From NCBI GenBank assembly GCA_023249635.1, contig JAHFCH010000015.1:1-58374 (forward strand): a stretch of 58,374 nt of DNA, given 5' to 3'. Shown piece after piece: positions 943 through 24,032 of the stretch (position 1 is its first letter; every line of letters starts with the position of its first letter). The notes below the pieces were generated by a model. The model saw only the letters and a list, made by a program, of their open reading frames with translations, did no database searches and was not told the origin of the DNA. The stretch comes from Fibrobacterota bacterium (lineage in GTDB: Bacteria > Fibrobacterota > Fibrobacteria > UBA11236). A program made the position numbers and the translations under genes.

Positions 943-991
943 TTGCCACCCTTGATATCATGCGCCCGGGTCCCAGGACCTGGGCCGCGAT

Positions 992-2089: not shown

Positions 2090-2179
2090 TTTACCCCCAC
2101 GGCAATCATTTCGATAATGGGAATGTAGGCCGCTGGTCCGAAGGCCGCGGTGGCCGCGGGGCCGATAGGGCGGCTTATT

Positions 2180-2195
2180 GTTCTCCCTTGAGAAC
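2180..2195. promoter_or_regulatory. 16-bp palindromic operator GTTCTC-CCTT-GAGAAC
   Basis: Perfect 6-bp arms with a 4-bp spacer, 91 bp upstream of the DUF1080 start at 2089. It is one of seven copies in the carbohydrate island. See the regulon finding. Confidence 0.8.
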
Positions 2196-2245
2196 GCATG
2201 CCCGGCCGCCCCATTGGCATGGGCGGGACCTGGCGAAGGAAAGCT

Positions 2246-4048
2246 TCAGAGCACGAGCTTCCTGGCGAAGGAACGCGAGCCATGCCGGACCTCCAGGACA
2301 TAGAGCCCTGCGCCCGGGGAAAGGGAAATGGAAATCGGACCTTGCTCCCCCGATCTCCAGACAACGGCCCCTGAGAGGGATCGCAAGGTAAGCGAATACG
2401 CGTCGGCGATTTCCGTTACGATCTTCAGCGTTCCCCGGCCAAGCGCTTCGCTGTGCACCAAGGATTGCAAGCGCGAGTCGCCCAGGCGGCCCTGCGCCAG
2501 ATGGACGGCCGGATTCCAATCCTGGCCGGATATGTTATTCAAGGTATACCAGGCTTCGTTGTCCCAGGGGATTTCGCCGGTGGCGGACTTTACGCCCATG
2601 ATCTTGAAGTCGACTGCATAGTCCATGGCTTTCAGCCCGGCTATCGCCAGGAACACCCGTTTACCATCCTGGGAAACCTTCGTTTCCGAAACGGGCCGGG
2701 GCTCATCCGCCTCCTTGCAGCAGCCATAGGTGGGACTACGGGTGTAGTGCCACTGTTTCACCGAAAAGTTCGCCGGAATGATGGTGGTCATGTCTACCGG
2801 TTGGGTGAACTCGATTTCGAAACCGGCCTTGAACGAATGGATGGCCAGCATCTCGAAGGCGCTTTTACCGGGCTTCTGGGTAATCCGGTACATGGGCATG
2901 AGATCGCCCCCGGGCCAGTTGCCTCCCACTTTTTCCATGCTGCCCGTGTATAGGGCCCCGTCCGGGCCCCACGTCAGGCGATTGGTTGCGGCATTGCCCA
3001 TGCCGTTGGTCATGTGGAAGACCGCTCCCTGGTAATCGCCTGCGACCTTTTCCAATGCGAAGCGCAACAAGCCGGGGCCGTTGATGTCCCCGTCGAACCA
3101 TTGGCCGGCAAAGAGGCCTTTATCGACATAGATGGGCTGGCTATTCGATGCGCCGGCGACCTGTGATGGATAGGGAATCCATACCGCGGGGGGTTGATAG
3201 GGGAGGCTTTCCGCCCAGTTCGGTGGATTGTTGGTTTGGCGGTGCCCGTAGAATTTCCCGGGTTTCATATGCATGAAGGCATCGGCCGGGAGGTAGCTCC
3301 CCTGGTTATCGACCACGAACATATCCCCATCCGCGTTGATATTCGCCCCGTTGGGCGAGCGCAGGCCGCCGCAATACTTGACGAAATGGCTGCCGTCGGG
3401 ATCCCACTGGAGAAAGGCGCCGGAATATTCATCGGTAACCGGTACGTCGGAGGGACCTCCGTGCCGGATGCTGCCGGAATACGGAGCGTAGAATTTTCCG
3501 GCGTGGTAAATGGGCGTGAACACCCAGTGGTGCCAGTGGGCCCCGAAAGGCCAATCGATGATCTTGGTTTTGTTGGCGGACGGATTCGCCGTTGAGCTGT
3601 TCTGCGCTATCGAGTAGAACGCGTCCCGGTCGCTCACGTAAATCTTATCGTTGACGATATTGAGGCCGGACGGATCCTTGAAATTATTCGCGATGAGGGT
3701 CATACGGACGTTCTTGGAATCCGTCGCGCCCTCGACGATGAAAACGCAAGAGTTCGGATCCGGATTGGCGGGAAGGCCTCCGCCTCCGCCCCCGATGGAT
3801 CCAGAGGTAAGGATCACCATCCGTCCATCGGAAAGAAAGCCGATGCCCATGTTCCTATACATATCCGGTAGGGGAATGGCTTGGATATCAAAGGCCGGGT
3901 GGACCGCATTGGCCGGTATGGCCGCCGTGCCCGTATTGCAGAGGGCGGCGGCGAAAATCAATCCCATTACCGGAGCCCGCAAAAATTTATTCGAGCGGTT
4001 TACCTTCGGAACGGAATGGACGGTTACCGGCGTTCTTGAGATTTCCAT
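2246..4048 (-). CDS. Secreted beta-propeller (sorbosone dehydrogenase/NHL-like) with sorting domain
   Basis: 600 aa. The N-terminus (MEISRTPV...) has a hydrophobic segment at about residues 28-45 ending in an AIPANA-like cleavage site. Repeated blade-like motifs such as GIGFLSDGRMVILTSG, DPSGLNIVNDKIYVSDRD, SPNGANINADGDMFVVDN and TNRLTWGPDGALYTGSM resemble the glucose/sorbosone dehydrogenase and membrane-bound dehydrogenase propellers often seen beside ThuA and DUF1080 genes. A run of glycines (about residues 84-90) is low complexity. The last ~75 residues are a sorting domain (LSPGAGLYVLEVRHG...KLVL). It is a single-gene transcription unit under the operator at 4147, separated from the DUF1080 gene by 156 bp. 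The specific reaction and cofactor cannot be told from the sequence. Confidence 0.75.
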   Translation of the reverse strand: MEISRTPVTVHSVPKVNRSNKFLRAPVMGLIFAAALCNTGTAAIPANAVHPAFDIQAIPLPDMYRNMGIGFLSDGRMVILTSGSIGGGGGGLPANPDPNSCVFIVEGATDSKNVRMTLIANNFKDPSGLNIVNDKIYVSDRDAFYSIAQNSSTANPSANKTKIIDWPFGAHWHHWVFTPIYHAGKFYAPYSGSIRHGGPSDVPVTDEYSGAFLQWDPDGSHFVKYCGGLRSPNGANINADGDMFVVDNQGSYLPADAFMHMKPGKFYGHRQTNNPPNWAESLPYQPPAVWIPYPSQVAGASNSQPIYVDKGLFAGQWFDGDINGPGLLRFALEKVAGDYQGAVFHMTNGMGNAATNRLTWGPDGALYTGSMEKVGGNWPGGDLMPMYRITQKPGKSAFEMLAIHSFKAGFEIEFTQPVDMTTIIPANFSVKQWHYTRSPTYGCCKEADEPRPVSETKVSQDGKRVFLAIAGLKAMDYAVDFKIMGVKSATGEIPWDNEAWYTLNNISGQDWNPAVHLAQGRLGDSRLQSLVHSEALGRGTLKIVTEIADAYSLTLRSLSGAVVWRSGEQGPISISLSPGAGLYVLEVRHGSRSFARKLVL

Positions 4049-4146
4049 GGATTACCCCGTTAAAGCAAAGATTCCCTACCTGCGCCTCAAGCTAAACCGC
4101 AGGGAGGGTTCCAGCGCGGCGTCCGGGCATGGGGGTCTGGGATTTC

Positions 4147-4162
4147 GTTCTCTAATGAGAAT
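4147..4162. promoter_or_regulatory. 16-bp palindromic operator GTTCTC-TAAT-GAGAAT
   Basis: Same palindrome with one arm mismatch (final T for C), 99 bp upstream of the propeller start at 4048. Confidence 0.8.
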
Positions 4163-4190
4163 GCAGCCTGGGCGCGCGCGCCGTTACCCG

Positions 4191-7049
4191 TCAAGGGATA
4201 GCGATGCGGCGCTGGACCCGTTCGCCGCCGGCGCGGCCTTCCATGAGGAAACTCCCGTGACCCACGCCGGCAAGGAGCATATTCGCGGTATGCGATCCGG
4301 CGGGTTGACGGCCCAACTGCAAGGTCCGCAAGCAGCGGCCATCCAGCGAGGACAAGCGGAACCGGATCCCGGAAGCGACAGACAGGACATAGTTGATATT
4401 CAGCCCGTCAGGCCCCGTTCCGGAAATATCCATGCGGAAGCCGCGCGCGCCCACCGGAGACGGGGTATGAATGGCGGTAAGCAGCCAACTGCCGCCGGCA
4501 AGTTTCAGGGTACGCACGCCAAATCTAGGTATCGACAATTTGAGGGTGGACGACCCAGGTTGGACGCTGGGGATAACGGTTAACGGCGAAATGACCCTGC
4601 CATCAAGTTCGACCAGGTTGGCGCCTGTTGGGATGAATCCGAGTTCTACGGTTTGTTCTTGCGCATCGCCTTCGGCATTGAACAGGCGCAGCAACATATT
4701 CCCGCCATCCATGAGGATGGTAGGGACGTATGTTCCCGTTGCCGTCCTTACCAGGGATTTGGTCATGGCCTGCCCGGCCGGAGGGGCGGTCATCATCCTC
4801 GCGAGCAGGGGTTCGCCCCAACGGTATTGTTCGTTCCACGTATGCGCCTGGTCCCATGTCCCGGCATGGGGAACCAGGGAGTAATGCACGTCCGTAGGTC
4901 CGGTGATGGAATAATTCCTGTCCCATAATCCCGGCCCGCTATAAGCGAGCACCAGTCCCAGCGGATCGTTCGGCCCGAACGCGTAGCTGGTCGTGTGGTC
5001 GCTCATCAGCGTCAAGCCGTACGCTCCCGCTGCGTCATTGATATCCACCCAGTTGACTATGATATTGTGTTTAATCGCTTCCCATGTGTCGAAAAACGTA
5101 TTGTCGTTGGCGCTTTTGCACACATCGAAAGCGGCATTTTTATTCAGCACCACGGGCCCGGTAAGCGCGGAGGGGAAAATGGCCTGCAATTTATAGCGGT
5201 CATTGTAAAAGGGTTTGGCCATGGCCCCTGCGACCGGTCCGCCGCTCCAGGTCTGGCCGATTTGCGGATTGCCGGACCAATCGATATGTACCTTCATCTC
5301 GATGCGTTTCTGCCCCTGAACCAGAGTCAAAGTCGAAACGAACGGATGAATGCCTATTTTTCCGCTTGCCGTTACGGTAACGCGCACCGGTCCATTCTCG
5401 ACGATTTGCAGGGTCGCGGGCGCATCGGCGCTGCTTAGCCACGTACCATTGACTTGTCCCCGGTATTCGTTGAAACGCCGCGGGCTGGACGCATCCACGA
5501 ATTCGCGTTGCAAGGCTTTGTCGTAAAGGCTGCTTATCGTGCCGCCCTTGGAGGGATCAAGGGTGATTTTATACCCATCGGTCTCGAGGATCGCCGCGCC
5601 ATTAGGCTGGATGCCGGCCCGCGCGCCGGACTCTCCCGGCGCCGTTCCGGACGGCTCTACCCGATAAGTGGAATACCCGAGGGACGGGGTCGTCGCGTTG
5701 AAGACGAGTTCTTGCGAAGAGGCGCCGTTCACCTGGCAAGGCACTTCCTGGCCTTGTGCGTTGTACACCTTCGCGTACTTGGTCCCCGAACCCACCCAAT
5801 TGGAAGGCAGCTGTAGGGAAGCGATATCGTTGCGGTCGGCGCTGACCGTGTTTACGATCCGGATATAATGGCTTCCATCAGGGGCTCCGCTTCCCGCAGC
5901 CAGCTTACCTAAGGCCTCGTTTTGGATATTGTCGCATTTCGTTTGCGTGTTCGGGATCCAAACCATAGTCGTCTGTTTGGCCCAGTTGCCGGCGGGATGG
6001 CCGTTATAGGGGACGATCCAGACATCGTGGTGCTGGGAAAGATTAAGCGTTTTCCAGGCATCGCGAAGTTCATGTTCTTGCCATTGCGCGCCGGCCCCGA
6101 ATACCGCCAGCGCCGAAGCCTTTTCCGTGGCGACTATCCTGTTTTCACCTGCCCGGACGCTCTGGGCAAGTCCCTGCACCACCTGTGCGCCCCATACAAG
6201 ACAGACGCGGATATTTTCTTGCGAGAAACGCCAATCCACTGTGGGCTTTATGGCGACCTTTTCGAAATACTCCGTCCATGTCCTATACACGGAGGGCACC
6301 CCAAGCGGCATGGGGCCGGCCTTCCTGCCGGCATCTTGCAAACACTCCCCGACCGGGTGCAGTATCCCGGCATCCCTTGCGCTCTTGATATAAGCTGCCG
6401 TATTAAGACTTGCTATCGTCGCCCGGGTTCCGATCGCGCTCTCGCTGGCATAGCGTGGAACCGCCGTGATTGCCGTCCCGTCAGGCCCGATCCAGTTTAC
6501 CACCTCGGCATCTTTGCCGATACAATATCCGCCCCAAGTGGTGTTCGGGTTTTTAAGCGACGCATAGGGCATTCCAAGCGACTTCAGGATTTGGGGCATC
6601 GCGCTCGTCCAGCAAGGCTCTTCAGGGGAATAGGTCTTTATGACTGCGCTGGGGAATGAATTATGGATAGTTTCGGCACCGTAGAGGAATTGGCGGATCA
6701 GGCTTTCTCCATCGATATTCCAAAAGTACGTTTGGTTAGATGAATTAACGAATTCAAAGCGATCAGGGGCGTCCTTGAACATTTGCTGCAAACTATTGTA
6801 GGCAGAGGGATCTCTTTGCTGTTCCAACGCCCAGGTTGCGGGTTCGATTTCAAAGTTCATTTTCCAATTGGGCTTGCTTCGCATGGTTTTCACGATCCAC
6901 TGGGTAAAATCGCTTGGATACCCCCCTTCAGCGCCGCCATGATAACCTTCGACAAATGAAGGCATTTCCTGACAGAGAGCCATGAATGGCAAAAGCATTA
7001 CCAGTAAGGGGACGCAACGACTTGACCGCTTGAAAATGGAAAAGGACAT
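4191..7049 (-). CDS. Secreted GH38-family alpha-mannosidase-like glycosidase with sorting domain
   Basis: 952 aa with a signal peptide (MSFSIFKRSSRCVPLLVMLL, cleavage near residue 27). The N-terminal half matches the GH38 (beta/alpha)7 domain: GYHGG at 35-39, FEIEPATW at 66-73, YSPEEPCW near 140-147 and SQHHDVW at 338-344, the last matching the metal-binding HHD region. The second half is the beta-sandwich typical of GH38 C-terminal domains (YKITLDPSKGGTISSLYDKAL near the middle). It ends in a ~75-residue sorting domain (LDGRCLRTLQLG...RIAIP). GH38 enzymes cleave terminal alpha-mannose with a bound divalent metal. Linkage specificity is unknown. It is preceded by a GGGGG-containing ribosome site and the operator at 7132. 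Together with the GH92 gene at 24033 it suggests mannoside turnover. Confidence 0.82.
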   Translation of the reverse strand: MSFSIFKRSSRCVPLLVMLLPFMALCQEMPSFVEGYHGGAEGGYPSDFTQWIVKTMRSKPNWKMNFEIEPATWALEQQRDPSAYNSLQQMFKDAPDRFEFVNSSNQTYFWNIDGESLIRQFLYGAETIHNSFPSAVIKTYSPEEPCWTSAMPQILKSLGMPYASLKNPNTTWGGYCIGKDAEVVNWIGPDGTAITAVPRYASESAIGTRATIASLNTAAYIKSARDAGILHPVGECLQDAGRKAGPMPLGVPSVYRTWTEYFEKVAIKPTVDWRFSQENIRVCLVWGAQVVQGLAQSVRAGENRIVATEKASALAVFGAGAQWQEHELRDAWKTLNLSQHHDVWIVPYNGHPAGNWAKQTTMVWIPNTQTKCDNIQNEALGKLAAGSGAPDGSHYIRIVNTVSADRNDIASLQLPSNWVGSGTKYAKVYNAQGQEVPCQVNGASSQELVFNATTPSLGYSTYRVEPSGTAPGESGARAGIQPNGAAILETDGYKITLDPSKGGTISSLYDKALQREFVDASSPRRFNEYRGQVNGTWLSSADAPATLQIVENGPVRVTVTASGKIGIHPFVSTLTLVQGQKRIEMKVHIDWSGNPQIGQTWSGGPVAGAMAKPFYNDRYKLQAIFPSALTGPVVLNKNAAFDVCKSANDNTFFDTWEAIKHNIIVNWVDINDAAGAYGLTLMSDHTTSYAFGPNDPLGLVLAYSGPGLWDRNYSITGPTDVHYSLVPHAGTWDQAHTWNEQYRWGEPLLARMMTAPPAGQAMTKSLVRTATGTYVPTILMDGGNMLLRLFNAEGDAQEQTVELGFIPTGANLVELDGRVISPLTVIPSVQPGSSTLKLSIPRFGVRTLKLAGGSWLLTAIHTPSPVGARGFRMDISGTGPDGLNINYVLSVASGIRFRLSSLDGRCLRTLQLGRQPAGSHTANMLLAGVGHGSFLMEGRAGGERVQRRIAIP

Positions 7050-7105
7050 GTTAACCCCCTGGCTTACTCCACAAGCTAGGGTGCAGGGATGGTTTCGGTG
7101 CGGCG

Positions 7106-8362
7106 TTAGGGGAAGGTGGGACCTAGATCTCGTTCTCTATGGAGAATGAAGGTAGGGGATTTTTTGAAACCGCGGCCTAAAATATCCTTACGCAGCCTCA
7201 TCGAATTCCCATCCACCCGGTTATGTTCTTCCATACCTGAACGAAGGAGCGCTGCGGACGCGGAATAGGAAAGCAGTTTTCCGTCGGTCCGCTGGGATTC
7301 GAACGAGAGCTTGACCCAATCGGCATTCCGGCTCCCCCGGAGGATTTGCACTTCATCCATATACCCGCGGAAATAACCGCCTTGATTATTTTCCCCGAGC
7401 CAGACGGTCTCCCGATTCTTGACGGGCGTCCCGTACGTGGCCGTGTCCCCGTCCTTGAGGCCGTTGATGTAAATCTTGAGTCGGCTTCCCTCATTGACCC
7501 CTACGACAAAGGCCCATGCCGGGGGACCTCCGAAATGGTTCCCCGTCCCCACGCAATCATGGTCCTTGCCGTTGGGGCCTTTTCCGTCCTGGTTCACGCA
7601 GAACTCCAATGTCTGCGCATTCGAACGGTACAACCGCCACGCGCCTTCCCCTTTTCCTACCAAGGGGTACCGCATGACCCCGTCTTTGCTCTCAAGCTTG
7701 ATCCAGCAGGCCAAAGCCATAGGACCGGTGAAATCGAAATCGGATCGGGTCAAGGGTTTTATCATGATTGATTGCCCGCCAGATCGATTCGGGTGGAAGT
7801 AATGGCCGGTTCCCACGATACCCTCCGTTGCATTCGCCGCAGTCAGGTTTTTTCCTTGGCCATTGGCCGCCATCGAGGTCGCATCCCGATATCCATCCGG
7901 ATCCGTATTCCCGGTTTCGCTCAAGTGCCATACGCCTGCATATCCGTCAGCGGTATCGAAAACCTGACTGGGCGCTCCGGCTTCCGGTGCCGAAGCGTTT
8001 CCCCAGTCCATGGAAAAGGCAGGGTATACCCGGTTTCCGAAAACCGTGTCCATTTTGATCCAAATTTCGGCAACCCGCGCGACCTTGTCCCATCTCTCGA
8101 TTTGAAAGGGAATCGGCACCCCACTCAGCTTGAAAAAACGGATGTCCTCGCCGTGGTCACGCGCTTGCGTGAAATCAAAGTTCCCCGCTTTAAGCCGAAC
8201 AACCACGGGAATATGCGTTACGGTACCGGAAACATTGGCTCCGCTTGCGGTGGTATTAATCATCCATAGGCGATTGAACCGCCAATCCGGATGAATAGCC
8301 TGGGAAAAGGCACAACCGATACCCAAGCAAAATAGGCTTAAGCCTCCGGCATTGAACAGCAT
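7106..8362 (-). CDS. Secreted DUF2341/LamG-domain protein
   Basis: 418 aa with a signal peptide (MLFNAGGLSLFCLGIGCAFS). Residues ~25-135 are a DUF2341 domain (VVVRLKAGNFDFTQARDHGEDIRF, then PFQIERWD). Residues ~150-360 are a laminin-G/concanavalin-like jelly roll (GVWHLSE; MALACWIKLES; GYMDEVQILRGSRNADW). The same architecture is present in the lipoprotein at 19760, so the two are paralogs. Such proteins bind or decorate polysaccharides at the cell surface and no catalytic function is known. It follows the ThuA gene by 19 bp and ends an operon with GSDH and ThuA. The last ~45 residues look unlike the family and run through the GH38 operator, so the original stop may have been lost or a frameshift may lie near 7260. 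Confidence 0.75.
   Translation of the reverse strand: MLFNAGGLSLFCLGIGCAFSQAIHPDWRFNRLWMINTTASGANVSGTVTHIPVVVRLKAGNFDFTQARDHGEDIRFFKLSGVPIPFQIERWDKVARVAEIWIKMDTVFGNRVYPAFSMDWGNASAPEAGAPSQVFDTADGYAGVWHLSETGNTDPDGYRDATSMAANGQGKNLTAANATEGIVGTGHYFHPNRSGGQSIMIKPLTRSDFDFTGPMALACWIKLESKDGVMRYPLVGKGEGAWRLYRSNAQTLEFCVNQDGKGPNGKDHDCVGTGNHFGGPPAWAFVVGVNEGSRLKIYINGLKDGDTATYGTPVKNRETVWLGENNQGGYFRGYMDEVQILRGSRNADWVKLSFESQRTDGKLLSYSASAALLRSGMEEHNRVDGNSMRLRKDILGRGFKKSPTFILHRERDLGPTFP
7132..7147. promoter_or_regulatory. 16-bp palindromic operator GTTCTC-TATG-GAGAAT
   Basis: Located 83 bp upstream of the GH38 start. It lies inside the last codons of the upstream LamG reading frame, which suggests that this frame's tail is not real coding sequence. 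Confidence 0.8.
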
Positions 8363-8381
8363 TGAATCCCCCGGTTCCGAT

Positions 8382-9899: not shown

Positions 9900-9923
9900 G
9901 GAATGCTCCTCCCGGACGATTGC

Positions 9924-11270: not shown

Positions 11271-11292
11271 GGATCCTCCAGGGTGAAATCAA

Positions 11293-11754
11293 CTACTTGA
11301 CCAGGAAGCGTTTCGACGTCTCCATACCGGGAAGGCTCACGCGCAAAACGTAGACGCCGCTTTCGGCTCCCCGTAAATCCGAACCGAAGTCGTAGTCGAC
11401 CGGGGAAGCGCCGCTCCGGACTTCTTTGAGCTTTCGAGCATTCATCGCGAGCAGGGAGACCGTATGCATTCCGGGGCGGGTGATCAAAACGCCGGGCGCA
11501 TCGGAAGGATGGAAGGTGATGCCGGATGCCTGCAACCGGAAACCCAAATCGGTCTTGACCGCGGAAATCAGGGGGATGGTATCGTACCCGGCCACGGAGT
11601 AGAGGAATTGCCTGAAGAACCTATCCCAGACAGGCGTGGTCATGCTGTTCATGATATTCAGGTCATGCCCTTCCATGAAATATCCGATCGTGCCTTTGCC
11701 CGCGGGGAAGGACCAGCTGGCGGGATACCCGCCGGGAGGATTGTCATAGCCCAC
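11293..11754 (-). pseudogene. 3' remnant of a ThuA-type gene with sorting domain
   Basis: An open frame of about 153 codons without a proper start (a GTG at 11754 is the first possible). Residues 10-50 match the end of a ThuA domain (WSFPAGKGTIGYFMEGHD, then FRQFLYSVAGYD). The last ~75 residues are a sorting domain (GVYVLRVSLPGMETSKRFLVK). The signal peptide and more than 150 residues of the domain are absent, with no operator or ribosome site in front. The break coincides with the 5' break of an opposite-strand TPR fragment, so a rearrangement or assembly join is likely at ~11750. In its intact form it would have been the first gene of the GSDH-ThuA-LamG operon. Confidence 0.7.
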
Positions 11755-12118
11755 GCCGACGGCGCAACCCGCCTTCGCTGCCGATCAATTCCAGGCGGCA
11801 TTGGCCGCCGATCCGGAAAGTCCCCAATTGAACTTCGGCATGGCCTCGGCCTTGCTGCTGCTGTACAGGTTCACGGATGCCGAAGCCTTCCTGGAAATAA
11901 CCCTGCGGGTTTCGCCGGACCACTCCGGGGCCCTCAATTACTTCGGGATGATCCATGAGGTTAATGGCGATTCCCTCGGGGCGCTGGAATATTACCGGCG
12001 GGCATTGCGGGCCGACTCCGCGAACGCGGCTGCCCGGGAAAATCTTGCTGCGCTATCCAAATCAATGTCGGGTCCTTTGGGAAAGGGGTCAGAACAGGGA
12101 AATGCGATGCGCGAATAA
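11750..12118 (+). pseudogene. 3' fragment of a TPR-repeat gene
   Basis: The frame opens just after a TAG at 11747 and runs to a TAA at 12118 without a credible start (TTG at 11801 only). The translation holds at least two tetratricopeptide units: ESPQLNFGMASALLLLYRFT with DAEAFLEITLRVSPDH, then SGALNYFGMIHEVNGDSLGA with LEYYRRALRADSANA. TPR proteins are protein-interaction scaffolds and the role of the parent gene is unknown. The fragment fills the whole gap between two minus-strand secreted genes and overlaps the end of the GSDH gene by 30 bp in convergent orientation. Its 5' end stops at the junction shared with the ThuA remnant. Confidence 0.65.
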
Positions 12119-13837
12119 TCCCTGCGCCGTCCGCACGCGCACCATATAGATGCCGGGCGGCAATGCCTTCCGCCGCGAGAGCTCGGCGAAACGGTATTCG
12201 GCGCCTTCCGACCCGATCGCCATGAAAACGCGATGGCCGGACAAATCATAGAGATCGAATTGATGGGTCCCCGGTTCGTCCACCTTGAGGGTCGACGGGG
12301 ACAACACGATCTTTCGATTGGCATCGATGACGGGAATCCCGGTGGAGACGGGGACATGGCAGGAACCCTTATAGATGACGCGCATGGCTCCCGGGTTGCT
12401 GGCGTTATTGTATCCGCCCGAGTAGTTGAGGATGTAAAGGGCCCCATCCTTGCCGTACATGGACATGACATGGTTGCGGATTTTGAAGGAGTTGAAAAGC
12501 CCGTTGTCCACCTCCAGGGTGTCGATTGGTTGCAAGGAGTTGGTGTCAAGGGTTATCGCCCACATGCCGCCGCTGAACCCGGCGACCAGCCACTTGTTGT
12601 CGAAATGGGGCGGGAATTTCGTCACCGAGTTCAGGCTGGGGTCGAAATGGTAGATGGGTCCGCTGATGGAAATGTTGACGAGATTGTTGATGGTACCTGG
12701 GATGGCCGGCGGCAACTCCTGCACTCCGCTGTTCAATGGCGAGGTGTTCTTGGGAGCCAGGGGATCGAGGGTGTGGCTCCCGGTCCGGACATTGTTGCCT
12801 TCGAAGTACGGATAGCCGCTGAAGATGGGATGATCGGTGATGTTGAACTCGTCGTAGACGCTCGCGAAATTGACCGTGCCCCAGGCCAGCCACCGCTTGG
12901 TAGGGTGTACGGCTACGGAGAAGTTGCTGCGTTCGCCTTTGACATACACCTCGGGCAGCACCTTGCTGGTGTCCCGGTATTGGGCAGCGAGATCCTTGCG
13001 GCCCATTTTCTCGAAATGATCCGCCCAGTATTCGCCGAAGTTTCCCCGCGGGATGCTGTAGCCCTTGGCGGAGCTGTCCGGATGGATGCGGAAGAACCCG
13101 CCCCGCAGGCTATGGGTGTTGGACGATCCCCATTCCGAGCTCGCGGTGCTATCGGTATGGGACATCACGTTCAAGCTGCCGGGATTCAAATCCTGGCTGT
13201 TGTTGCCCACCGCCACCCATAAGTCGCCATAGGCGTCGAAAGTCATGGGGCCGCCTGAATGCCACCAATCCGTCTTACTGCCTATGATCTCGATGAGGAC
13301 CTTTTCCGTGCCCATGTCCAGGGTATTGTCCGGCCTGGCCGTGATGCGCGAGAGGCGCAGTAGGCGGTTCAGTCCCAGCATCTTTTCGGGCGAATACCAG
13401 AAGTACATCCAGCGGTTGATCGCGAAATCCGGATGCAAGGCCATGCCCATCAGGCCGTTGTCGTCGCCCCGGCCGTAATCGGATTTCCCCGGCGTGGTCA
13501 CGTCCTCCTTTTTGGCGTGGACGGAGATCTTGCCCATCAGGCTTACCTTGCGTGCCGTGCCGTCGTAGTACTTCACGTTGCCGAAGCGCTCTACGAAATA
13601 GATGTCGGAGTGATCGTACACCCCGTCTTTGTTGTTCACAACCCGCACATCCATGCGCGTCGGCTCGGAAAGGCCTGAGTCGGCTACGGCCCCGGCGGAG
13701 CCATTTTTGTTGAACACCTCCGTCGTCTGGAAATCGGCGGAGTTCAGGGCGCCGCAGCCGTTGCCGTTGTAGGTGAGTTGCGCCAAGGCGGGAATCGCGG
13801 CCAGCGCCGCAAGCGGCAGGGTTTTCCAAGTTCTCAT
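12089..13837 (-). CDS. Secreted sorbosone/glucose dehydrogenase-like propeller with sorting domain
   Basis: About 582 aa. I chose the ATG at 13837, preceded by AGGGAG and followed by a clean signal peptide (MRTWKTLPLAALAAIPALA). The frame itself extends a further 27 codons upstream. The GSDH propeller shows DIYFVERFGNVKYYDG, GLMGMALHPDF, WWHSGGPMTFDAYGDLWVAV and LRGGFFRIHPD. The last 70-80 residues are a sorting domain (FDLYDLSGHRVF...LFAHRISLF). It is closely related to the protein at 18034, sharing DAYGDLWVA, the RGGxxRIHPD motif and the xxPRGNFGE/xxPKGNFGE block. It is alone in its transcription unit under the operator at 13956. The substrate is unknown and an oxidoreductase role is inferred from the fold. 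Confidence 0.83.
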   Translation of the reverse strand: MRTWKTLPLAALAAIPALAQLTYNGNGCGALNSADFQTTEVFNKNGSAGAVADSGLSEPTRMDVRVVNNKDGVYDHSDIYFVERFGNVKYYDGTARKVSLMGKISVHAKKEDVTTPGKSDYGRGDDNGLMGMALHPDFAINRWMYFWYSPEKMLGLNRLLRLSRITARPDNTLDMGTEKVLIEIIGSKTDWWHSGGPMTFDAYGDLWVAVGNNSQDLNPGSLNVMSHTDSTASSEWGSSNTHSLRGGFFRIHPDSSAKGYSIPRGNFGEYWADHFEKMGRKDLAAQYRDTSKVLPEVYVKGERSNFSVAVHPTKRWLAWGTVNFASVYDEFNITDHPIFSGYPYFEGNNVRTGSHTLDPLAPKNTSPLNSGVQELPPAIPGTINNLVNISISGPIYHFDPSLNSVTKFPPHFDNKWLVAGFSGGMWAITLDTNSLQPIDTLEVDNGLFNSFKIRNHVMSMYGKDGALYILNYSGGYNNASNPGAMRVIYKGSCHVPVSTGIPVIDANRKIVLSPSTLKVDEPGTHQFDLYDLSGHRVFMAIGSEGAEYRFAELSRRKALPPGIYMVRVRTAQGLFAHRISLF

Positions 13838-13955
13838 GAAGGCTCCCTTCGTGGCGTAATCGGTCCGGAAAGCAGCATGGATCCGGGCTAGACCCGCAAT
13901 ATAGGGCGGCTTCCTCAAGACGACCGAATGGGGGATACGCCGGGAATCCGGTTTC

Positions 13956-13971
13956 GTTCTCTGATGAGAAC
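13956..13971. promoter_or_regulatory. 16-bp palindromic operator GTTCTC-TGAT-GAGAAC
   Basis: Perfect arms, 119 bp upstream of the GSDH start at 13837. It lies in the 151-bp gap between this gene and the end of the PL9 gene. Confidence 0.82.
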
Positions 13972-13988
13972 CCGTTCCCGGTATTCTT

Positions 13989-15527: not shown

Positions 15528-15540
15528 GAGAAGCCTCCTT

Positions 15541-16896: not shown

Positions 16897-16937
16897 GGAA
16901 AGGCTCCCTATGGGATTTGGGGTAGGCGGGTCGGAAT

Positions 16938-18005
16938 TCAGGGCACCGTAACGAGACGGCGGTCCCGGCCCAGGGGGCTTTGGGTGATAACGGCATAGAC
17001 GGCATGGGTTGCCAGCCCGGTGAAGGCGTAGCTCCGCGCTCCCGTGCCCTGGCGCGAGGCCATGCGCTTTCCGGATAGGCTCAGTACTTCCACGGTATGC
17101 CCGCCGCGGGTGGAGAAGGAAACCGTCAGGCCCGAGGTGGCTGCTTTGATTTCCGGCGCTTTTCCGGAGTAGGCGGCGTCCGCATCATCCGCTTTGCCGG
17201 AGCGATCCTTCACTCCGACGATTCCGGACTGGGAGGCCCACAGGATGGCATTATAGACCTGGGTGGCGAACATTCCCGGCGTGTTGAAGAAGCTGCCGCT
17301 ATGGCCGATGATGCTGTAGTAATAGCGTCCGCCTCCCGCGAACTGCCGGTAATAGCTGACGGGATGATCTCCGCCCATCTTGACGCAACTGGGGCAAGTC
17401 GCTTCATTCAAGGTGTAAAGCACGTGCACGCCCGCCACCTTGCGGGGATCCGAATTGAACGCGTACCATTCTTCGCGGTAATTGTAGGTCGCCTCCAGCC
17501 CGGCGTTGATCGGGTGGTTCTTTTCGGCGGCCTCGATGTTCAGGTCCGCATGATCGACGCCATGGGAGCTGAAGGTGCCGCCGATTGCGTCATCGTAATC
17601 CTTCCACGTGGCGTGGGTATCGTTGGCCCCGTGGAGGCCTATCACGCCCTTGGTGTTCATGAATTCCAGGAAGGCGGCGCGCTGATCGGCGGAATTGAGC
17701 AGGCCCCCGAAGTTGGTATTGTTGTTGAGGATAATCACGGAGTACTTGGCGAGGTTGGCCTTGGTGAAGACCGTAGCATCGTTGGCCGTATCGGCGGTAT
17801 ATGTGCCCTTGTCCGCCCCCCATTTCATGAGGAAGGGCGTACCCTGGTTGATGGTCCCGTGCACGTAACCCCCCGTGCCGCAGGCCTTGACGATGAGGAC
17901 CTTGAAGGGCGCGGCTTGCGGGGTCTCCAGGAGGCCGGAAAGCATGAGAATTCCGTAGATGGCTCTTCGGCCATGCGCGGTAATGGATTTCAATATCGTT
18001 TTCAA
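16938..18005 (-). CDS. Secreted ThuA-domain protein with sorting domain
   Basis: 355 aa with a signal peptide ending near residue 31 (LSGLLETPQAA). ThuA blocks are FKVLIVKACGTGGYVHG, YSVIILNNNTNFGG, GVIGLHGANDTHATWKDYDD, EEWYAFN and YSIIGHSGSFFNTPG. The final ~80 residues are a sorting domain (HTVEVLSLSGKRMAS...GRDRRLVTVP). The histidine in GLHGA and the glutamate-rich EEWY segment are conserved in the family. The reaction is not established for secreted members, but an involvement in 3-keto-sugar processing is known for the Agrobacterium prototype. It lies 28 bp after the GSDH gene at 18034 in the same operon. Confidence 0.82.
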   Translation of the reverse strand: MKTILKSITAHGRRAIYGILMLSGLLETPQAAPFKVLIVKACGTGGYVHGTINQGTPFLMKWGADKGTYTADTANDATVFTKANLAKYSVIILNNNTNFGGLLNSADQRAAFLEFMNTKGVIGLHGANDTHATWKDYDDAIGGTFSSHGVDHADLNIEAAEKNHPINAGLEATYNYREEWYAFNSDPRKVAGVHVLYTLNEATCPSCVKMGGDHPVSYYRQFAGGGRYYYSIIGHSGSFFNTPGMFATQVYNAILWASQSGIVGVKDRSGKADDADAAYSGKAPEIKAATSGLTVSFSTRGGHTVEVLSLSGKRMASRQGTGARSYAFTGLATHAVYAVITQSPLGRDRRLVTVP

Positions 18006-18033
18006 TTTGTCTCCTGCGTTTATAAGCTGGAAG

Positions 18034-19650
18034 CTAGAAGCGAACCATTTCAGCGGAGGCGCTTCCCGATTCCGTACGGATCAGGATGCGGAACACGCCC
18101 TTGGCGGAAAGCGCCGGTAGAGCATAACTCGTAGGACCGGAACCCCGGAACGACACGGCTTCCCGACCTTGCAGATCCAGGATGCGGACCTCATGGGGGC
18201 CTTCGGTCAGGACGGAGAGCGATTGCCGGTCCAGGGTCATCAGTTCCTTTAGCGGCCGTATGCGCGCATCAGGCGCAGCGATCGCCGTAGGCATCTCCGG
18301 GAGCAGGGAGGGGTCTTTGCAGGTTCCTGTGTAGCGGATGACATCGATCCCGGCATTGTAGTTGGCGATATACACCGCCCCATCCGGCCCCTGTTTCATA
18401 TCGACCATGGTATTCGTCGCGTTCCCGGAGAAGATCTTCACTTCGCTGGTGACGGAATCCCCCGCTTCATTCAAGGTCAGCAGGTGGAATCCATAGTTGT
18501 CGCAACCGGATACCAACCATTTGCGGTTGAACTGGGGCGGGAATTGCGATGCGGACGGATTGGAGCCGTCATAGCGGAAGATGGGTCCCGTCATGGCGCA
18601 GCCTTCAAGGCGCTTGAAGATCGGCTCGCGTATGGGCGGCAGTTGTTTCACCCCGCGGGTGGAATCGTTTTTATTGATGGGAGCGAGGCGCGTGGAGCCG
18701 GCGGAAATCGGGTTACGGCCTAGATGATAATTATAGGGGTCGACCCCGGCCATATCCTCTTCGCCGGCGAAGTACGGCCAGCCCATGTAGTAAGGTTCCT
18801 TGACCAGGTTGTATTCTTCGGAGATCTTGTGCTGGTCCGGCCCCACATCGCCCCAAGCCAGCCAGCGCCGCACGGGATCAAGCGTAAGGGTATACGCATT
18901 ACGGGTCCCTTTCACGTAGATCTCGGGACGGACCTTGGACGTATCCGAATACAGGGCCGCCATGGCGCCCATGCCTTGCTTCTGAAAGCGCGCGGCTATG
19001 GCTTCCCCGAAATTGCCCTTGGGGATGGTGTAACCGCGCGGTGACCCATCGGGATGGATGCGTATGATGCCGCCCCGCAGATCCGAGGTGTTCGCGGGTC
19101 CCCAATCGAGCGACTCATTATCGCCTATGGCGACCCAGAGATCCCCATAGGCGTCGAATTGCATGGACCCGGCGGTATGGTACAGATTGCGGCGGCTGGG
19201 GATCTTGATGAGAACCTTCTCCGTTGCCAGGTCCAAATTCCCGTTCACGCCCAGCGGGATGCGGGAGATACGGAAGGTGGATTCGGTGGTCTTATCCTCG
19301 CTCAGAAAGGAGTACATGAAGAAAACGTTGCGGTTGGATTTGAAGTTGGGATCCAGCGCCACTCCGACCAGCCCGTCTTCCACGCCGGTGGGCACCGTGA
19401 TCTTCCCCAGTGTCAGTACTTTCCGGGCGGAGGCATCGTATTTCTTGAAGTTGCCGCCCTTCTCGATGAAGTAGACGTCGGTGAGGCCGCCGCCCTTATC
19501 GTCGAAAGCCAGCTTCAACACCCCGGAAGTCGCGGTCAAAGGGCTCATCTCGAAATCGGCATCGGTGGCGGCGCAGCCCTTATAGGTGCCCAAATCGACC
19601 GCCCAAATCCGACCCAGCATGGCCGCGATGATGACAACATGAAGCCGCAT
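18034..19650 (-). CDS. Secreted sorbosone/glucose dehydrogenase-like propeller with sorting domain
   Basis: About 538 aa from the ATG at 19650 (MRLHVVIIAAMLGRIWA signal). The frame extends eight codons further to 19674. GSDH blocks are DVYFIEKGGNFKKYD, GLVGVALDPNF, YHTAGSMQFDAYGDLWVAIG, LRGGIIRIHPDGSPRGY and WLAWGDVGPDQ. The last ~70 residues are a sorting domain (HEVRILDLQGREAV...SASAEMVRF). It is the first gene of an operon with ThuA, an outer-membrane protein and PL9, behind the operator at 19732. It shares long stretches with the gene at 12089 and is probably a duplicate that diverged. Confidence 0.83.
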   Translation of the reverse strand: MRLHVVIIAAMLGRIWAVDLGTYKGCAATDADFEMSPLTATSGVLKLAFDDKGGGLTDVYFIEKGGNFKKYDASARKVLTLGKITVPTGVEDGLVGVALDPNFKSNRNVFFMYSFLSEDKTTESTFRISRIPLGVNGNLDLATEKVLIKIPSRRNLYHTAGSMQFDAYGDLWVAIGDNESLDWGPANTSDLRGGIIRIHPDGSPRGYTIPKGNFGEAIAARFQKQGMGAMAALYSDTSKVRPEIYVKGTRNAYTLTLDPVRRWLAWGDVGPDQHKISEEYNLVKEPYYMGWPYFAGEEDMAGVDPYNYHLGRNPISAGSTRLAPINKNDSTRGVKQLPPIREPIFKRLEGCAMTGPIFRYDGSNPSASQFPPQFNRKWLVSGCDNYGFHLLTLNEAGDSVTSEVKIFSGNATNTMVDMKQGPDGAVYIANYNAGIDVIRYTGTCKDPSLLPEMPTAIAAPDARIRPLKELMTLDRQSLSVLTEGPHEVRILDLQGREAVSFRGSGPTSYALPALSAKGVFRILIRTESGSASAEMVRF

Positions 19651-19731
19651 AGCCCCCCTGCGCGTTTCCAGCAAAGCTATCCGGAAACCCGCGCGGATAA
19701 TGGGCGTGGGGGAGGGATCGCGGGCGGTTTC

Positions 19732-19747
19732 GTTCTCGTTAGAGAAC
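19732..19747. promoter_or_regulatory. 16-bp palindromic operator GTTCTC-GTTA-GAGAAC
   Basis: Perfect arms, 82 bp upstream of the start at 19650 and 13 bp beyond the end of the lipoprotein gene. Confidence 0.82.
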
Positions 19748-19759
19748 CCGGGAGGGACG

Positions 19760-21424
19760 CTATTCGGCGGGAGCGACCAAAACGATTGCGGAGGCGGGCT
19801 TTTGCGTCGCGTAGATCAGCTTGAGCCAATCTTCGCTACGCGCCGTCCGCGAGAATTCGACCTCGTCGATTTTGCCGCGGAAGCCTTCCACGCCCGGCTT
19901 GGCGGGATCGTCGCCGAAGCTAAGTTCCGCAGGGGTGTCGGCGTTCTGCGGCGCATCGACGGGCCCGGCTTCCAGGGCGCCATTCAGGTAAAGCATGGCT
20001 TGACCTGCTGCTCTGACGAACGCCACATGGTACCAGACGCCTTTCCGGAGAGCCGTGGCGCCATGCAAGGCGAGGCCGGGGGTGCCACCCTGATCCAGGG
20101 CCGCCAATAGGGTGCCTCCGGAGCGCAACTGGACTTCATAGTTGCCTTCCGCGCTGCGCTTGGCGAAGACCTGGTTGTTGGCGGCAATGGAGTCGACGAA
20201 TATCCAGGCGGACAGGCAGAAATCACCCGTGCCGAAGCGGAGGCTGGCGTTATCGCGGACGCCGACGTGCCTCCCCGTTCCGTCGAACTGGCGGGCCTTG
20301 GCCACCAGGCCGGCCGCAGGCGTCGCGCCGGAATCCATTCCGTGGTTCCCGATTCCCGTGGCATCCTTGAGGCTAATCCCCAGATGCCATGCTCCGACGA
20401 AACCGGATGCGGTATCGAAGACGGCGCCCGGGTTGGAGGCCACGGCCGCTTCCGGAAGCCCGGAATAAAGCAAGAAAGTCTGGGTAGGATTGTTCGCTGC
20501 GACCGTGTCCAGACCCACCCAGATTTCCGCGCGCTTGTTCAATGCGTCCCAACTTTCGATTTCGAAAGGCAGCGGCGTAATGCCATCGGATTTGGAGAAG
20601 CGGATGTCTTCGCCGTTGGACTTCGCGGTGGTGAAATCGAAGTTGGCGGAAGTCAGGCGGACCAATAAGGGGAAGCGTCCCAGGCCGGCCTTGAGGCCCG
20701 CTCCCGTAGGGCCCGCATTCACGGTGACCGCGCGCAGGAATCTCCAGGCATGGTACGGGCCCAGCATCAATTCCGTTCCCGCCTTGGTTGATATCGGCCT
20801 GCCCAGCAGGTTGCGCGCGGATATGCCGGGAACCATGTGGATCAAGGCGGCATAGCGCGCCGCCGGCACCCCGAGGAGGGTTACCTTGCGTGTTACCTGG
20901 GAAACGGAGTCCGGTACCGTGAAGACGCGGGTGCCGGGCAGGTAGAAATAGCCTTCCCCGGATTCGCCGTCCATGGCGAAGGAGATGCTGCCGGCTTCCG
21001 CCAACTTCGCGACCGGCTGGGGCAACGCCTGGCCTTCCGCCAAACCGGAAGCTTTCACTCCGGTCAGCAACGCCAGCGTCCCCCCCAGGGAATCGCGGAT
21101 CTCTATATTGTAGGCGCCGGCCACCACGTCCGATATCTCATACTTGCCTTCGGCATCCGTGCTCACCGACCAGGCGGAGGGCAGCGAATCGGCCAAGAAG
21201 GGATCATACGAATCCGGCAGCAACCGCACGCGCGCGTTGGCGGCCGCGGTCCCGTCCAAGGTCAGGACCTGGCCGGTAACCTTTCCCGAATTGCCGATCT
21301 CGATGCTTCCCCCTGCCAGCCTGTCCGTGCAACCCCAAATGCAAATGCATACGGCGGCCAAGGCGGGCAAAGCCCAGCGCCATGGGAAACGATCATGAAA
21401 TCCCTTGGCTGCCCCGGTCATCAT
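19760..21424 (-). CDS. Lipoprotein with carboxypeptidase-regulatory-like, DUF2341 and LamG domains
   Basis: 554 aa. The N-terminus has a basic stretch, a hydrophobic core and a cysteine at residue 32 (CICIWGC), giving a lipoprotein signal. Residues ~45-110 are a carboxypeptidase-regulatory-like beta-sandwich (GKVTGQVLTLDGTAAANARV, then YEISDVVAGAYNIEIRDS). Residues ~245-335 are DUF2341 (FPLLVRLTSANFDFTTAKSN, GEDIRFSK), and ~340-545 are LamG (GAWHLGISLKDATGIGNHG; LSAWIFVDS; KIDEVEFSRTARSEDWLKL). It overlaps the regulator gene by 4 nt (ATGA), so the two are translationally coupled. A cell-surface sensing or glycan-binding role together with the regulator is an attractive but unproven reading. 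Confidence 0.82.
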   Translation of the reverse strand: MMTGAAKGFHDRFPWRWALPALAAVCICIWGCTDRLAGGSIEIGNSGKVTGQVLTLDGTAAANARVRLLPDSYDPFLADSLPSAWSVSTDAEGKYEISDVVAGAYNIEIRDSLGGTLALLTGVKASGLAEGQALPQPVAKLAEAGSISFAMDGESGEGYFYLPGTRVFTVPDSVSQVTRKVTLLGVPAARYAALIHMVPGISARNLLGRPISTKAGTELMLGPYHAWRFLRAVTVNAGPTGAGLKAGLGRFPLLVRLTSANFDFTTAKSNGEDIRFSKSDGITPLPFEIESWDALNKRAEIWVGLDTVAANNPTQTFLLYSGLPEAAVASNPGAVFDTASGFVGAWHLGISLKDATGIGNHGMDSGATPAAGLVAKARQFDGTGRHVGVRDNASLRFGTGDFCLSAWIFVDSIAANNQVFAKRSAEGNYEVQLRSGGTLLAALDQGGTPGLALHGATALRKGVWYHVAFVRAAGQAMLYLNGALEAGPVDAPQNADTPAELSFGDDPAKPGVEGFRGKIDEVEFSRTARSEDWLKLIYATQKPASAIVLVAPAE

Positions 21425-22266
21425 GGCGCTTTACCATCATAACGGGTCGTGGGGAATACCTGGAAGTTGATGTGATACACGTTTTCGGACCGGGTATCCT
21501 GCGCCATGACGTCGGCCAATTCCTTGCGGAAGATCTGGATTTTCCTTTTTATCGTTTCGAACCCGGCCTTGGAAAGGCCCGCTACCACGCAGGATATTTC
21601 CCGGTCGGCGGGATCGATCTTATCCAAGGCGATCTCGGCCAGCCGCAGGTTCTGGGAGTGGAACTTCTGCACCGTCTGGGAACGCACCTCGTCCCCGGTG
21701 GTGAGCCTGCGATCGGATTGCACGTAGCCTTGCTTCTCCTTGCGGATCATCCCCAACTCCAGCAGCAATGTTACGGATTCCTCGGCATGGGCCGCGGAAA
21801 TGCGGGGGTGCACGGCCTTTCCCAAAGCCGCGAAGTCTTCCTTGAAATCATAGATGGTAACCAATTCCCAGATCGTGGAATGATACCAATTGGACAAGAA
21901 CTTCAATTCGGATCTGAGGATATGCCTCGCCTTGGTGGCTTTCTTGTGCGAGGTCAGGCGCCGGAAGAAATGCGCCCGTTGGTCCGCATCCTTGGATTGG
22001 TTGAAGGCCACCAAATCCTCGAAGTAGGCCATGCACATGGGATCAAGTTCCAATCCATGGCCGATCCGGAAAATCGAATCCTGGGTCAGGTCCCTTTTGC
22101 CTTCGATCACGTGCGGGAGAAAGCTTTTCGATCCGAATCCCACTTTGCGCGCGAAAAGCAGATAGGAAAAGGAAGGAGAGGTCTTCTTCCGCGAGAGATA
22201 GTAATCCCTAAGGAAATCCCGGTAATTCATGTAGTCGAAAATCGTCGGCATGGGTTCGGACATCAC
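21421..22266 (-). CDS. TIGR02147-family (Fibrobacter-type) regulator
   Basis: 281 aa, cytoplasmic with no signal. It starts with the family signature TIFDYMNYRDFLRDYYLSRK, then FSYLLFARKVGFGSKSFL, an HTH-like segment with AxKxGxxSxS spacing. It continues with DQRAHFFRRL, LSNWYHSTIWELV and the ISCVVAGLSKAGFETIKRKI end block (DUF4423-like). Its length is typical for the family. The biochemical role of TIGR02147 proteins is little studied and regulation is inferred from the HTH-like N-terminus. Here the case is stronger because a copy of the island palindrome lies 51 bp upstream (22317) and it is coupled to a surface lipoprotein. It is the best candidate in the window for the protein that binds GTTCTC-N4-GAGAAC. 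Confidence 0.82.
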   Translation of the reverse strand: MMSEPMPTIFDYMNYRDFLRDYYLSRKKTSPSFSYLLFARKVGFGSKSFLPHVIEGKRDLTQDSIFRIGHGLELDPMCMAYFEDLVAFNQSKDADQRAHFFRRLTSHKKATKARHILRSELKFLSNWYHSTIWELVTIYDFKEDFAALGKAVHPRISAAHAEESVTLLLELGMIRKEKQGYVQSDRRLTTGDEVRSQTVQKFHSQNLRLAEIALDKIDPADREISCVVAGLSKAGFETIKRKIQIFRKELADVMAQDTRSENVYHINFQVFPTTRYDGKAP

Positions 22267-22316
22267 CCAATTCTAATGCCCGGCGGGGTTTGATGCTTTC
22301 GGCCCGGAGGAAAATC

Positions 22317-22332
22317 GTCCTCCACTGAGAAC
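22317..22332. promoter_or_regulatory. 16-bp palindromic operator GTCCTC-CACT-GAGAAC
   Basis: One mismatch in the left arm, 51 bp upstream of the TIGR02147 start. It suggests autoregulation and is the closest to its gene of the seven sites. Confidence 0.7.
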
Positions 22333-22417
22333 GAATTCGGCAGTGCCTGGCGTACTTTCGCGAAAAAGCAGGCAAGTTTTGGTTATTGGAGGTCCGCCCG
22401 CCGGAGAGGCGCTGATA

Positions 22418-23698
22418 TCAAGGCAAGGCCACTGGTTGCATCCGCATCCAATTCCCGCGGCGCAAGGCCATGAGGCACAGTCCATGCAGGCTGGACATCT
22501 CGATGTCATTCACGCCGGGGCCGATGGCGAAGGAAGCCATTTCCTTTCCCTCCACGTTGCGGAAGGCCGCGGTTATTGACCGATCGGACGGATTCGTGAA
22601 ACGCATCCAGCTGCCAATCTGCCGCCAGGAGGGTTCTTCAGCCGGGAGGTCGGCGGGCCGGAATCCGGTACTGTTCGTGGAGAAGACGGCTGTGGCGACG
22701 TCGCTGGACGGGAAACCATTGCGATAGGTCCGGGCTTTCAGGGTAGCGGCCGATTTCAGGACGAGGGAATCCCGGTAGAGCGCCGAAGACGGCGTGGGAT
22801 CGGAACCATCCAAGGTGTAGCGGAGCGCCGAACCGATCACGGCCGCGTCCAGGGTAACCTTGGTACTACTGTTGAATTTCCCGCCCGCGGGCGCTATCAA
22901 GGGGGCGGGAAGCTTCGCGCCGGCAGCGAAAGGGCGTACCTTGATATCGCGGAACCAGACGCGCATCGCGTCCCCGTGATCCTGCATGCCGATGGAACCG
23001 GCGGGGTGCCGACCCCAGGTATCCCGATCGTTGGGGCAGAGGCCGTAATACTTGCTCAGCTTGAAACGTTGCAGCCAATCCGGGGAACCCAGCTCATACG
23101 CGTTAACCTCCTTCCCGTTGAGCCAGTGTTCAATCTGGTTTCCGTTGGCCCAAATGGTCCCTTGATTCCATTGGTCAAAGGGTTTGGCCAGCTCTACGTA
23201 AGGCTGTCCGATTACGCCGTCCTGCACGGTGGGGTGCAGATCGTAGTTCGCGCCTGTGCGCTTGATCGGCATGGCGGTTTCCCCGGGTAAATGCCCCATC
23301 TCGTTCCGATCGCTTGCGTTGGCGTCGTCGAGGATGGCGTATTCCTCCCCGCTGCATTGCCGGTTGCCGCCCGATACGCGGATGAAGATCCCGCTGTTTC
23401 CCTTGGCGTTAAGCTTCCATTCCATCGACAATTCGAAATCCGCGTACGAGTCATTGCTGAGGAGATCGCTGAAAGGGGAGCCGGGCGCGCTGGCCAGTGC
23501 CTGATCCTCGATGATCCAGGATCCAGGCGTACCGCCGGGCCCCGGGTGGAAGTGGGATTTCCAATCAATTCCATCAAAGAGGAGGACCCAGCCGGCCGCC
23601 TTCTCGGCCTCGGAAAGCCTGTTGAGCGGGGTATCCTGGGCGTGCCCGCGGGAGATGAAAAGCATGAAGATGAGCGGGAGTAACCTTAGAGGCCGCAT
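22418..23698 (-). CDS. Secreted DUF1080 protein with chitobiase-type C-terminal domain
   Basis: About 426 aa from the ATG at 23698 (MRPLRLLPLIFMLFISRGHA signal). The frame reaches 23800 but the upstream part is not signal-like. The DUF1080 domain spans ~25-240 (GWVLLFDGIDWKSHF, ELSMEWKLNAKGNSGIFIRV, YAILDDANASDRN, HWLNGKEVNAYE, RVWFRDIKVRP). Residues ~255-325 are a chitobiase/beta-hexosaminidase C-terminal-like domain (ALRYTLDGSDPTPSSALYRD). The end lacks the typical sorting motif. DUF1080 proteins are known to hydrolyse 3-keto-glycosides. It is divergent from the GH92 gene and shares a ~335-bp intergenic region with it. The operator at 23953 is 255 bp upstream of this gene, so its control is less clear. 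Confidence 0.8.
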   Translation of the reverse strand: MRPLRLLPLIFMLFISRGHAQDTPLNRLSEAEKAAGWVLLFDGIDWKSHFHPGPGGTPGSWIIEDQALASAPGSPFSDLLSNDSYADFELSMEWKLNAKGNSGIFIRVSGGNRQCSGEEYAILDDANASDRNEMGHLPGETAMPIKRTGANYDLHPTVQDGVIGQPYVELAKPFDQWNQGTIWANGNQIEHWLNGKEVNAYELGSPDWLQRFKLSKYYGLCPNDRDTWGRHPAGSIGMQDHGDAMRVWFRDIKVRPFAAGAKLPAPLIAPAGGKFNSSTKVTLDAAVIGSALRYTLDGSDPTPSSALYRDSLVLKSAATLKARTYRNGFPSSDVATAVFSTNSTGFRPADLPAEEPSWRQIGSWMRFTNPSDRSITAAFRNVEGKEMASFAIGPGVNDIEMSSLHGLCLMALRRGNWMRMQPVALP

Positions 23699-23952
23699 AT
23701 AGAGTCGACTGTTTTCCACGTGACTTCGCCTTCCCGGAGCTGGGGTCTTATTGGGGATGCCGCCCGTCCTCCCGCCATGCGCCTGGGGGGAGGCAAGCAC
23801 GGTGGGGCTTTCCAGCTAGGGGAGGACGGGGCGGCAAGCCTTGAGTTTTCAGCACCAGCCATTCCTTGCGGCAAACGGAAACACCTACGGAATACGATAT
23901 TCCCGATTACGCTTCCGCGCAGCCGGATGGATTGATGAAAAGCAGTGATCAC

Positions 23953-23968
23953 GTTCTCGGCGGAGAAC
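23953..23968. promoter_or_regulatory. 16-bp palindromic operator GTTCTC-GGCG-GAGAAC
   Basis: Perfect arms, 64 bp upstream of the GH92 start on the plus strand. It is the only copy serving a plus-strand gene. The rest of the 335-bp divergent region (23699-24032) shows no other clear signal. Confidence 0.8.
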
Positions 23969-24032
23969 GAATTGCCCCTGCGCAATCTTTGTCTCAGCAA
24001 CAAGCATTCCCCGTACGCCCTACTTTGGTTCC

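Follow-up and report, generated by a model that had tools for sequence, protein, structure and literature searches.

Seven palindromic sites in a carbohydrate-processing island of a Fibrobacterota bacterium are likely the operators of a TIGR02147 protein encoded among them (21421-22263), which would act as an autoregulated local activator of the island. The island lies in a stretch of 58,374 nucleotides (the window; contig JAHFCH010000015.1 of assembly GCA_023249635.1), which we analyzed together with the genome of 6,751,321 bases. An initial sequence-only reading had proposed that the palindrome, GTTCTC-N4-GAGAAC, controls this island, and our sequence comparisons support such a role through confinement of the sites to the island, TIGR02147 genes beside the same site in foreign genomes, a constant promoter phase, and a match between recognition helix and half-site. 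The sites are very probably read by one member of a large regulator family without prior function, and the finding is probably larger than first stated, in that the island would be a local, autoregulated, and activating regulon exemplifying a family-wide arrangement.

Scanning the window confirmed all seven palindromes at the positions originally reported, four of them perfect (2180, 13956, 19732, and 23953) and three with one mismatch, which falls in the right arm at 4147 and 7132 (GAGAAT) and in the left arm at 22317 (GTCCTC). As had also been noticed, the four-base spacers differ between all seven sites. The palindromes lie 90, 98, 82, 118, 81, 53, and 64 bp from their gene starts, in agreement with the 51-119 bp first given once the signal-peptide ATGs at 13837 and 19650 are taken. 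The sites, each with its TAnnTT-like box, are the following:

2180..2195, minus strand: perfect operator for the DUF1080 gene 992-2089; box TACATTCC at 2127-2120, 60 bp from the operator centre
4147..4162, minus strand: one-mismatch operator for gene 2246-4048; box TAGCTTGA at 4094-4087
7132..7147, minus strand: one-mismatch operator for GH38 4191-7049; box TAGCTTGT at 7078-7071, 61 bp from the centre
13956..13971, minus strand: perfect operator for a GSDH-led unit (ATG 13837); box TATATTGC at 13903-13896
19732..19747, minus strand: perfect operator for a GSDH-led unit (ATG 19650); box TAGCTTTG at 19679-19672
22317..22332, minus strand: one-mismatch operator at the regulator's own promoter; box TAGAATTG at 22275-22268, 49 bp from the centre
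23953..23968, plus strand: perfect operator for GH92 24033-26390; box TACTTTGG at 24021-24028

The perfect palindrome occurs four times in the genome, with about 0.4 expected, and all four copies fall inside this island, within a span of 22 kb, so that the similar density elsewhere that would have spoken against the proposal was not found; the reversed pattern, used as a control, gave no perfect match across the genome. Around 25-30 one-mismatch palindromes are scattered elsewhere in the genome. As candidate regulon members these proved mostly background, with 2 of the 11 examined keeping the promoter phase, and these two look like sites of a GTTTTC-type sister. An eighth one-mismatch match in the window, at 40647, is beyond the island and lacks the promoter phase. 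When two mismatches were allowed genome-wide, we found 330 matches versus 185 in the control, an excess of about 1.8-fold that is modest because chance matches dilute a small true set.

The operators keep a fixed distance to the TAnnTT box. The start of the box is 60 bp from the operator centre at five island promoters and 61 bp at one, while the regulator's own promoter has its box one helical turn nearer, at 49 bp. Among 20,000 random sets of seven positions, the best reached 3/7 at such a TAnnTT phase, as opposed to 6/7 in the island. The same geometry is seen beyond this genome. We retrieved 40 loci carrying a perfect site from other genomes of the phylum, a few of the loci orthologous to each other, and in these the commonest TAnnTT offsets are 59, at 11 sites, and 49, at 6, compared with a mean of 0.68 per offset. 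A test blind to the palindrome sequence, performed upstream of 198 unique TIGR02147 genes, found perfect dyads most often at 49 (10), 50 (9), and 59 bp (6) over a background of 0.28. Dyads were concentrated at 49-51 and 59-60 bp both with 137 and then with 198 unique genes, and the peak remained after the genes were clustered into 110 groups. Scanning for TAnnTTTG on its six specified bases was too noisy in these AT-rich genomes, and the four-base TAnnTT core gave clear peaks.

What might this geometry mean? In flavobacteria, the TAnnTTTG box spans -12 to -5 (PMC9723704). If the box here is read as the -7 element of the Fibrobacteres-Chlorobi-Bacteroidetes (FCB) group, operator centres would fall at -72.5/-73.5 and -61.5, and class I sites of CRP are found at -61.5, -71.5, and further whole turns (PMC10882989). 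The operators are thus placed upstream, at positions whole helical turns apart, as those of class I activators are, with transcription starts that are predicted. We favor an activator because the geometry matches class I positions, although geometry is no proof. The best-surviving alternative, which we nevertheless consider unlikely, is repression: bound to the same operators, the TIGR02147 protein would keep the island silent until displaced by an inducer. HigA/Xre-type helix-turn-helix (HTH) proteins are indeed often autorepressors, and the structures nearest to the regulator are HigA/GraA-operator complexes. However, a repressor would be likely to bind on the box or downstream of it, in no fixed phase, whereas every operator here is well upstream of it (centre at 49-61 bp), in two positions one helical turn apart.

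The regulator itself is a clear member of its family, matching TIGR02147 (Fsuc_second) with 263.7 bits (cut-off 50) over positions 1-271 of the 272 in the profile, and Pfam PF14394 (DUF4423) with a score of 116.7 (cut-off 30). It is the only regulator among the island proteins scanned. TIGR02147 has undergone a paralogous expansion in Fibrobacterota: this genome contains 85 matches, and the 14 control genomes contain none. Neither the NCBIfam TIGR02147 entry nor the Pfam PF14394 entry assigns a function or an operator, and in the open-access literature searched TIGR02147 is not named, while DUF4423 appears once, as an entry in a Bdellovibrio table. We found no Pfam HTH match in the regulator and, by sequence and fold searches, no full-length relative among solved structures. 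Its AlphaFold model (mean pLDDT 82) predicts a HigA/Xre-like HTH at residues 12-95, with a recognition helix at residues 48-53. The structures nearest to this N-terminal part are HigA-type, several of them operator-bound, with a best Z of 8.6 over residues 12-121 and Foldseek E values above 0.01, and the middle part of the model matches winged-helix regulators. Since these folds are common, both matches are supporting evidence only.

The operator accompanies TIGR02147 genes in distant genomes. In 9 of the 40 foreign loci, a TIGR02147 gene starts 98-268 bp downstream of the perfect site, where genome size and gene count would predict well under one, and all nine come from families other than that of this genome. 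In a same-genus relative (G159), a truncated ortholog of the regulator keeps a one-mismatch site 67 bp upstream. That ortholog ends after about 160 residues, with remnants of genes of the DUF1080 and 2246-4048 types behind it, a picture that could come from decay of the cluster or from misassembly. We also came across a TIGR02147 gene on a contig labeled Sedimentisphaerales, through either misbinning or transfer.

The letters of the half-site vary with the recognition helix. Operators upstream of TIGR02147 genes often have GTT-NN-C arms (GTTCTC, GTTCAC, GTTTAC, GTTTCC, GTTACC, GTTATC, and others), and one subgroup uses the same arms with N6 spacing. When we searched for GTT..C/G..AAC with a phased box, 56 of the 115 listed matches that we examined had free middle letters that pair completely, with about 7 expected, and this genome alone gave 15 matches versus 2 in the control. 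Genes with SF at residues 47-48, where the predicted recognition helix begins, have a GTTCTC operator in 21 of 45 cases versus 1 of 153 without SF, and those with AF have a GTTCAC operator in 4 of 12 versus 1 of 186 without AF, counts that are not from a random sample since nine genes entered the set through their site. Similarly, PF/PY/SY and HAHL go with GTTTAC operators. A second local array in this genome consists of GTTTAC-N4-GTAAAC sites in the same promoter phase (contig C319, positions 1-20000; sites at 1343, 7831, 14910, and 15026) and adjoins another TIGR02147 gene; a GSDH protein is encoded in the vicinity, as are two proteins weakly similar to GH99. Such multi-site arrays are not a feature of every paralog, most loci having no repeated dyad beyond the control level. 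We also noted GGTAAC-N6-GTTACC, which reaches 8 copies per 20 kb in this genome both near TIGR02147 genes and in control regions, and looks like a separate genome-wide palindrome.

These data bear on the possibility that the palindrome is read by another protein, either a TIGR02147 paralog or an unlinked regulator, the adjacent TIGR02147 gene being merely a target. With 85 family matches in the genome, several with SF-type helices, there are candidates for such a reader, but we regard it as quite improbable. The perfect sites are found nowhere outside the island that holds the regulator gene, no other sampled paralog in this genome has this N4 site upstream, and the local protein shares its helix residues with TIGR02147 proteins that neighbor the identical site in distant genomes. 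Inverted repeats abound between bacterial genes, yet a dispersed repeat, hairpin, or terminator family preceding genes by accident is hardly credible given arms of only 6 bp, differing spacers and flanks, island-only perfect copies, and a fixed distance to the promoter box. Chance clustering, for which one could cite the mild excess in the window alone at three mismatches (30 matches versus 17.6), is just as implausible in view of four out of four perfect genome matches falling together and of the promoter phasing.

We therefore return to the TIGR02147 protein as an activator, for which we propose the following mechanism. A dimer of the regulator, each subunit combining the N-terminal HigA/Xre-like HTH with a C-terminal winged-helix-like part, would read both GTTCTC arms through the N-terminus of the recognition helix. 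From its upstream position it would then recruit RNA polymerase as class I activators do, a mode suggested by the constant distance between operator centres and the TAnnTT-like box (60-61 bp, or 49 bp for the regulator's promoter). In this way it would turn on, all at once, the regulator gene and six other units, composed mainly of genes for secreted sugar-processing proteins, presumably in response to an inducing carbohydrate. Other TIGR02147 paralogs appear to share this geometry but to differ in the central letters of the half-site, which would keep their regulons separate. Several points weigh against this scheme. The global pTM of the regulator model is only 0.51, and the regulator's own box carries one mismatch to TAnnTT, which we take as a Fibrobacterota promoter box from Flavobacterium and from the phasing seen here. 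A 61% ortholog in another genome (G158) has a GTCCTC-N5-GAGGAC palindrome instead of the N4 operator. Furthermore, 24 of the 45 SF-type genes are without a GTTCTC-N4 site, some using N6, and the site-based sampling of nine genes inflates the counts of the helix association, though not its direction.

Pfam scanning supports the original description of the sites as preceding units for GH38, GH92, GSDH-type enzymes, DUF1080, and TIGR02147. The genes concerned are the following:

992..2089, minus strand: 3-keto-disaccharide hydrolase (DUF1080), target (Pfam)
2246-4048, minus strand: weak similarity to PVC-type heme-binding/beta-propeller proteins (NCBIfam match below cut-off)
4191..7049, minus strand: GH38 alpha-mannosidase-like target (Pfam)
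12089..13837, minus strand: GSDH-type secreted protein heading its unit (Pfam)
18034..19650, minus strand: GSDH-type secreted protein heading its unit (Pfam)
19760..21424, minus strand: DUF2341-LamG lipoprotein-like protein, whose ATG overlaps the regulator stop by 4 bp
21421..22263, minus strand: TIGR02147/DUF4423 regulator, proposed cognate activator (profile match, predicted fold)
24033..26390, plus strand: GH92 alpha-mannosidase-like target (Pfam)

By Pfam, the island contains two DUF1080, GH38, GH92, three GSDH-type, two ThuA, Pel9-like lyase, alginate-lyase-like, and two DUF2341-LamG proteins. The unit begun by the GSDH protein at 13837 probably extends to 7106, and the one begun at 19650 comprises ThuA, an outer-membrane-like protein, and the Pel9-like lyase. 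On the side of site 23953 facing the second DUF1080 gene (22418 to about 23698), we found no phased promoter box, which leaves the divergent half of this site unproven. For the regulator (22263) and GH92 (24033), transcription is predicted to begin at the start codon itself, so that both messages would be leaderless. Promoter regions 4048-4162 and 7049-7147 are alike beyond operator and box, which suggests a promoter duplication. Of 183 loci, 59 have a DUF2341-LamG gene downstream of the TIGR02147 gene in the same orientation, and the two may act together.

The system resembles several known ones in part. As in class I activation by Escherichia coli CRP (PMC10882989, PMC5957442), its palindromic operators take upstream positions that differ by a helical turn, with predicted centres near -61.5 and -72.5, but the promoter box is TAnnTT, and the likeness is one of operator position that implies neither CRP homology nor alpha-subunit contact. 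The predicted N-terminal domain of the regulator resembles the HTH folds of HigA/GraA-type (Xre) antitoxin-repressors (Z about 8.6), but the protein additionally carries the winged-helix-like DUF4423 part at its C-terminus, and its operators are positioned for activation, not repression. There is no toxin gene beside the regulator, its neighbors being the DUF2341-LamG and DUF1080 proteins. As in polysaccharide utilisation loci of Bacteroidota, a local regulator sits beside secreted glycoside hydrolases and lyases, but this regulator is of an unrelated type, and no Pfam match to a SusC/SusD pair was found among the 20 window proteins scanned.

We wondered what such operators might precede in Fibrobacter, where 18 places with a family-type operator and a phased box were picked by half-site before their genes were read. 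Their first genes encode PL11 rhamnogalacturonan lyases (3), pectate/pectic lyases (3), GH5 cellulases (5), GH9 cellulases (2), and related DUF4859/DUF6055 proteins (3), with two giving no family match, enzyme counts that stand without a matched control set and include several places orthologous to one another. The half-sites appear to sort with function, GTTGTC going with pectin enzymes, and GTTTAC and GTTTTC-like ones with cellulases. Family-type operators ahead of Fibrobacter cellulases and pectinases appear to be a strong lead rather than a result. The genome paper of F. succinogenes S85 described cellulase regulation as an unanswered question, with few regulators near cellulases (PMC3079729).

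Taken together, these findings supply an operator and a promoter geometry for a family that has up to 85 copies per genome and no known function, and they predict its role. We lean, with less confidence than for the island itself, toward TIGR02147 proteins being the main local activators of polysaccharide-degrading regulons across Fibrobacterota, acting via GTT-NN-C/N4/G-NN-AAC operators 49-50 or 59-60 bp from TAnnTT, with letters set by the start of the helix. The association of helix and half-site provides a natural series for studying how paralogous regulators are kept separate. Since in Fibrobacter the operator rule marks sites ahead of cellulases (GH9 and GH5) and of lyases for pectin and rhamnogalacturonan, the question of cellulase regulation becomes directly testable, and if the family-wide reading is true, sequence alone would suffice to read out the Fibrobacter regulons for cellulases and pectinases.

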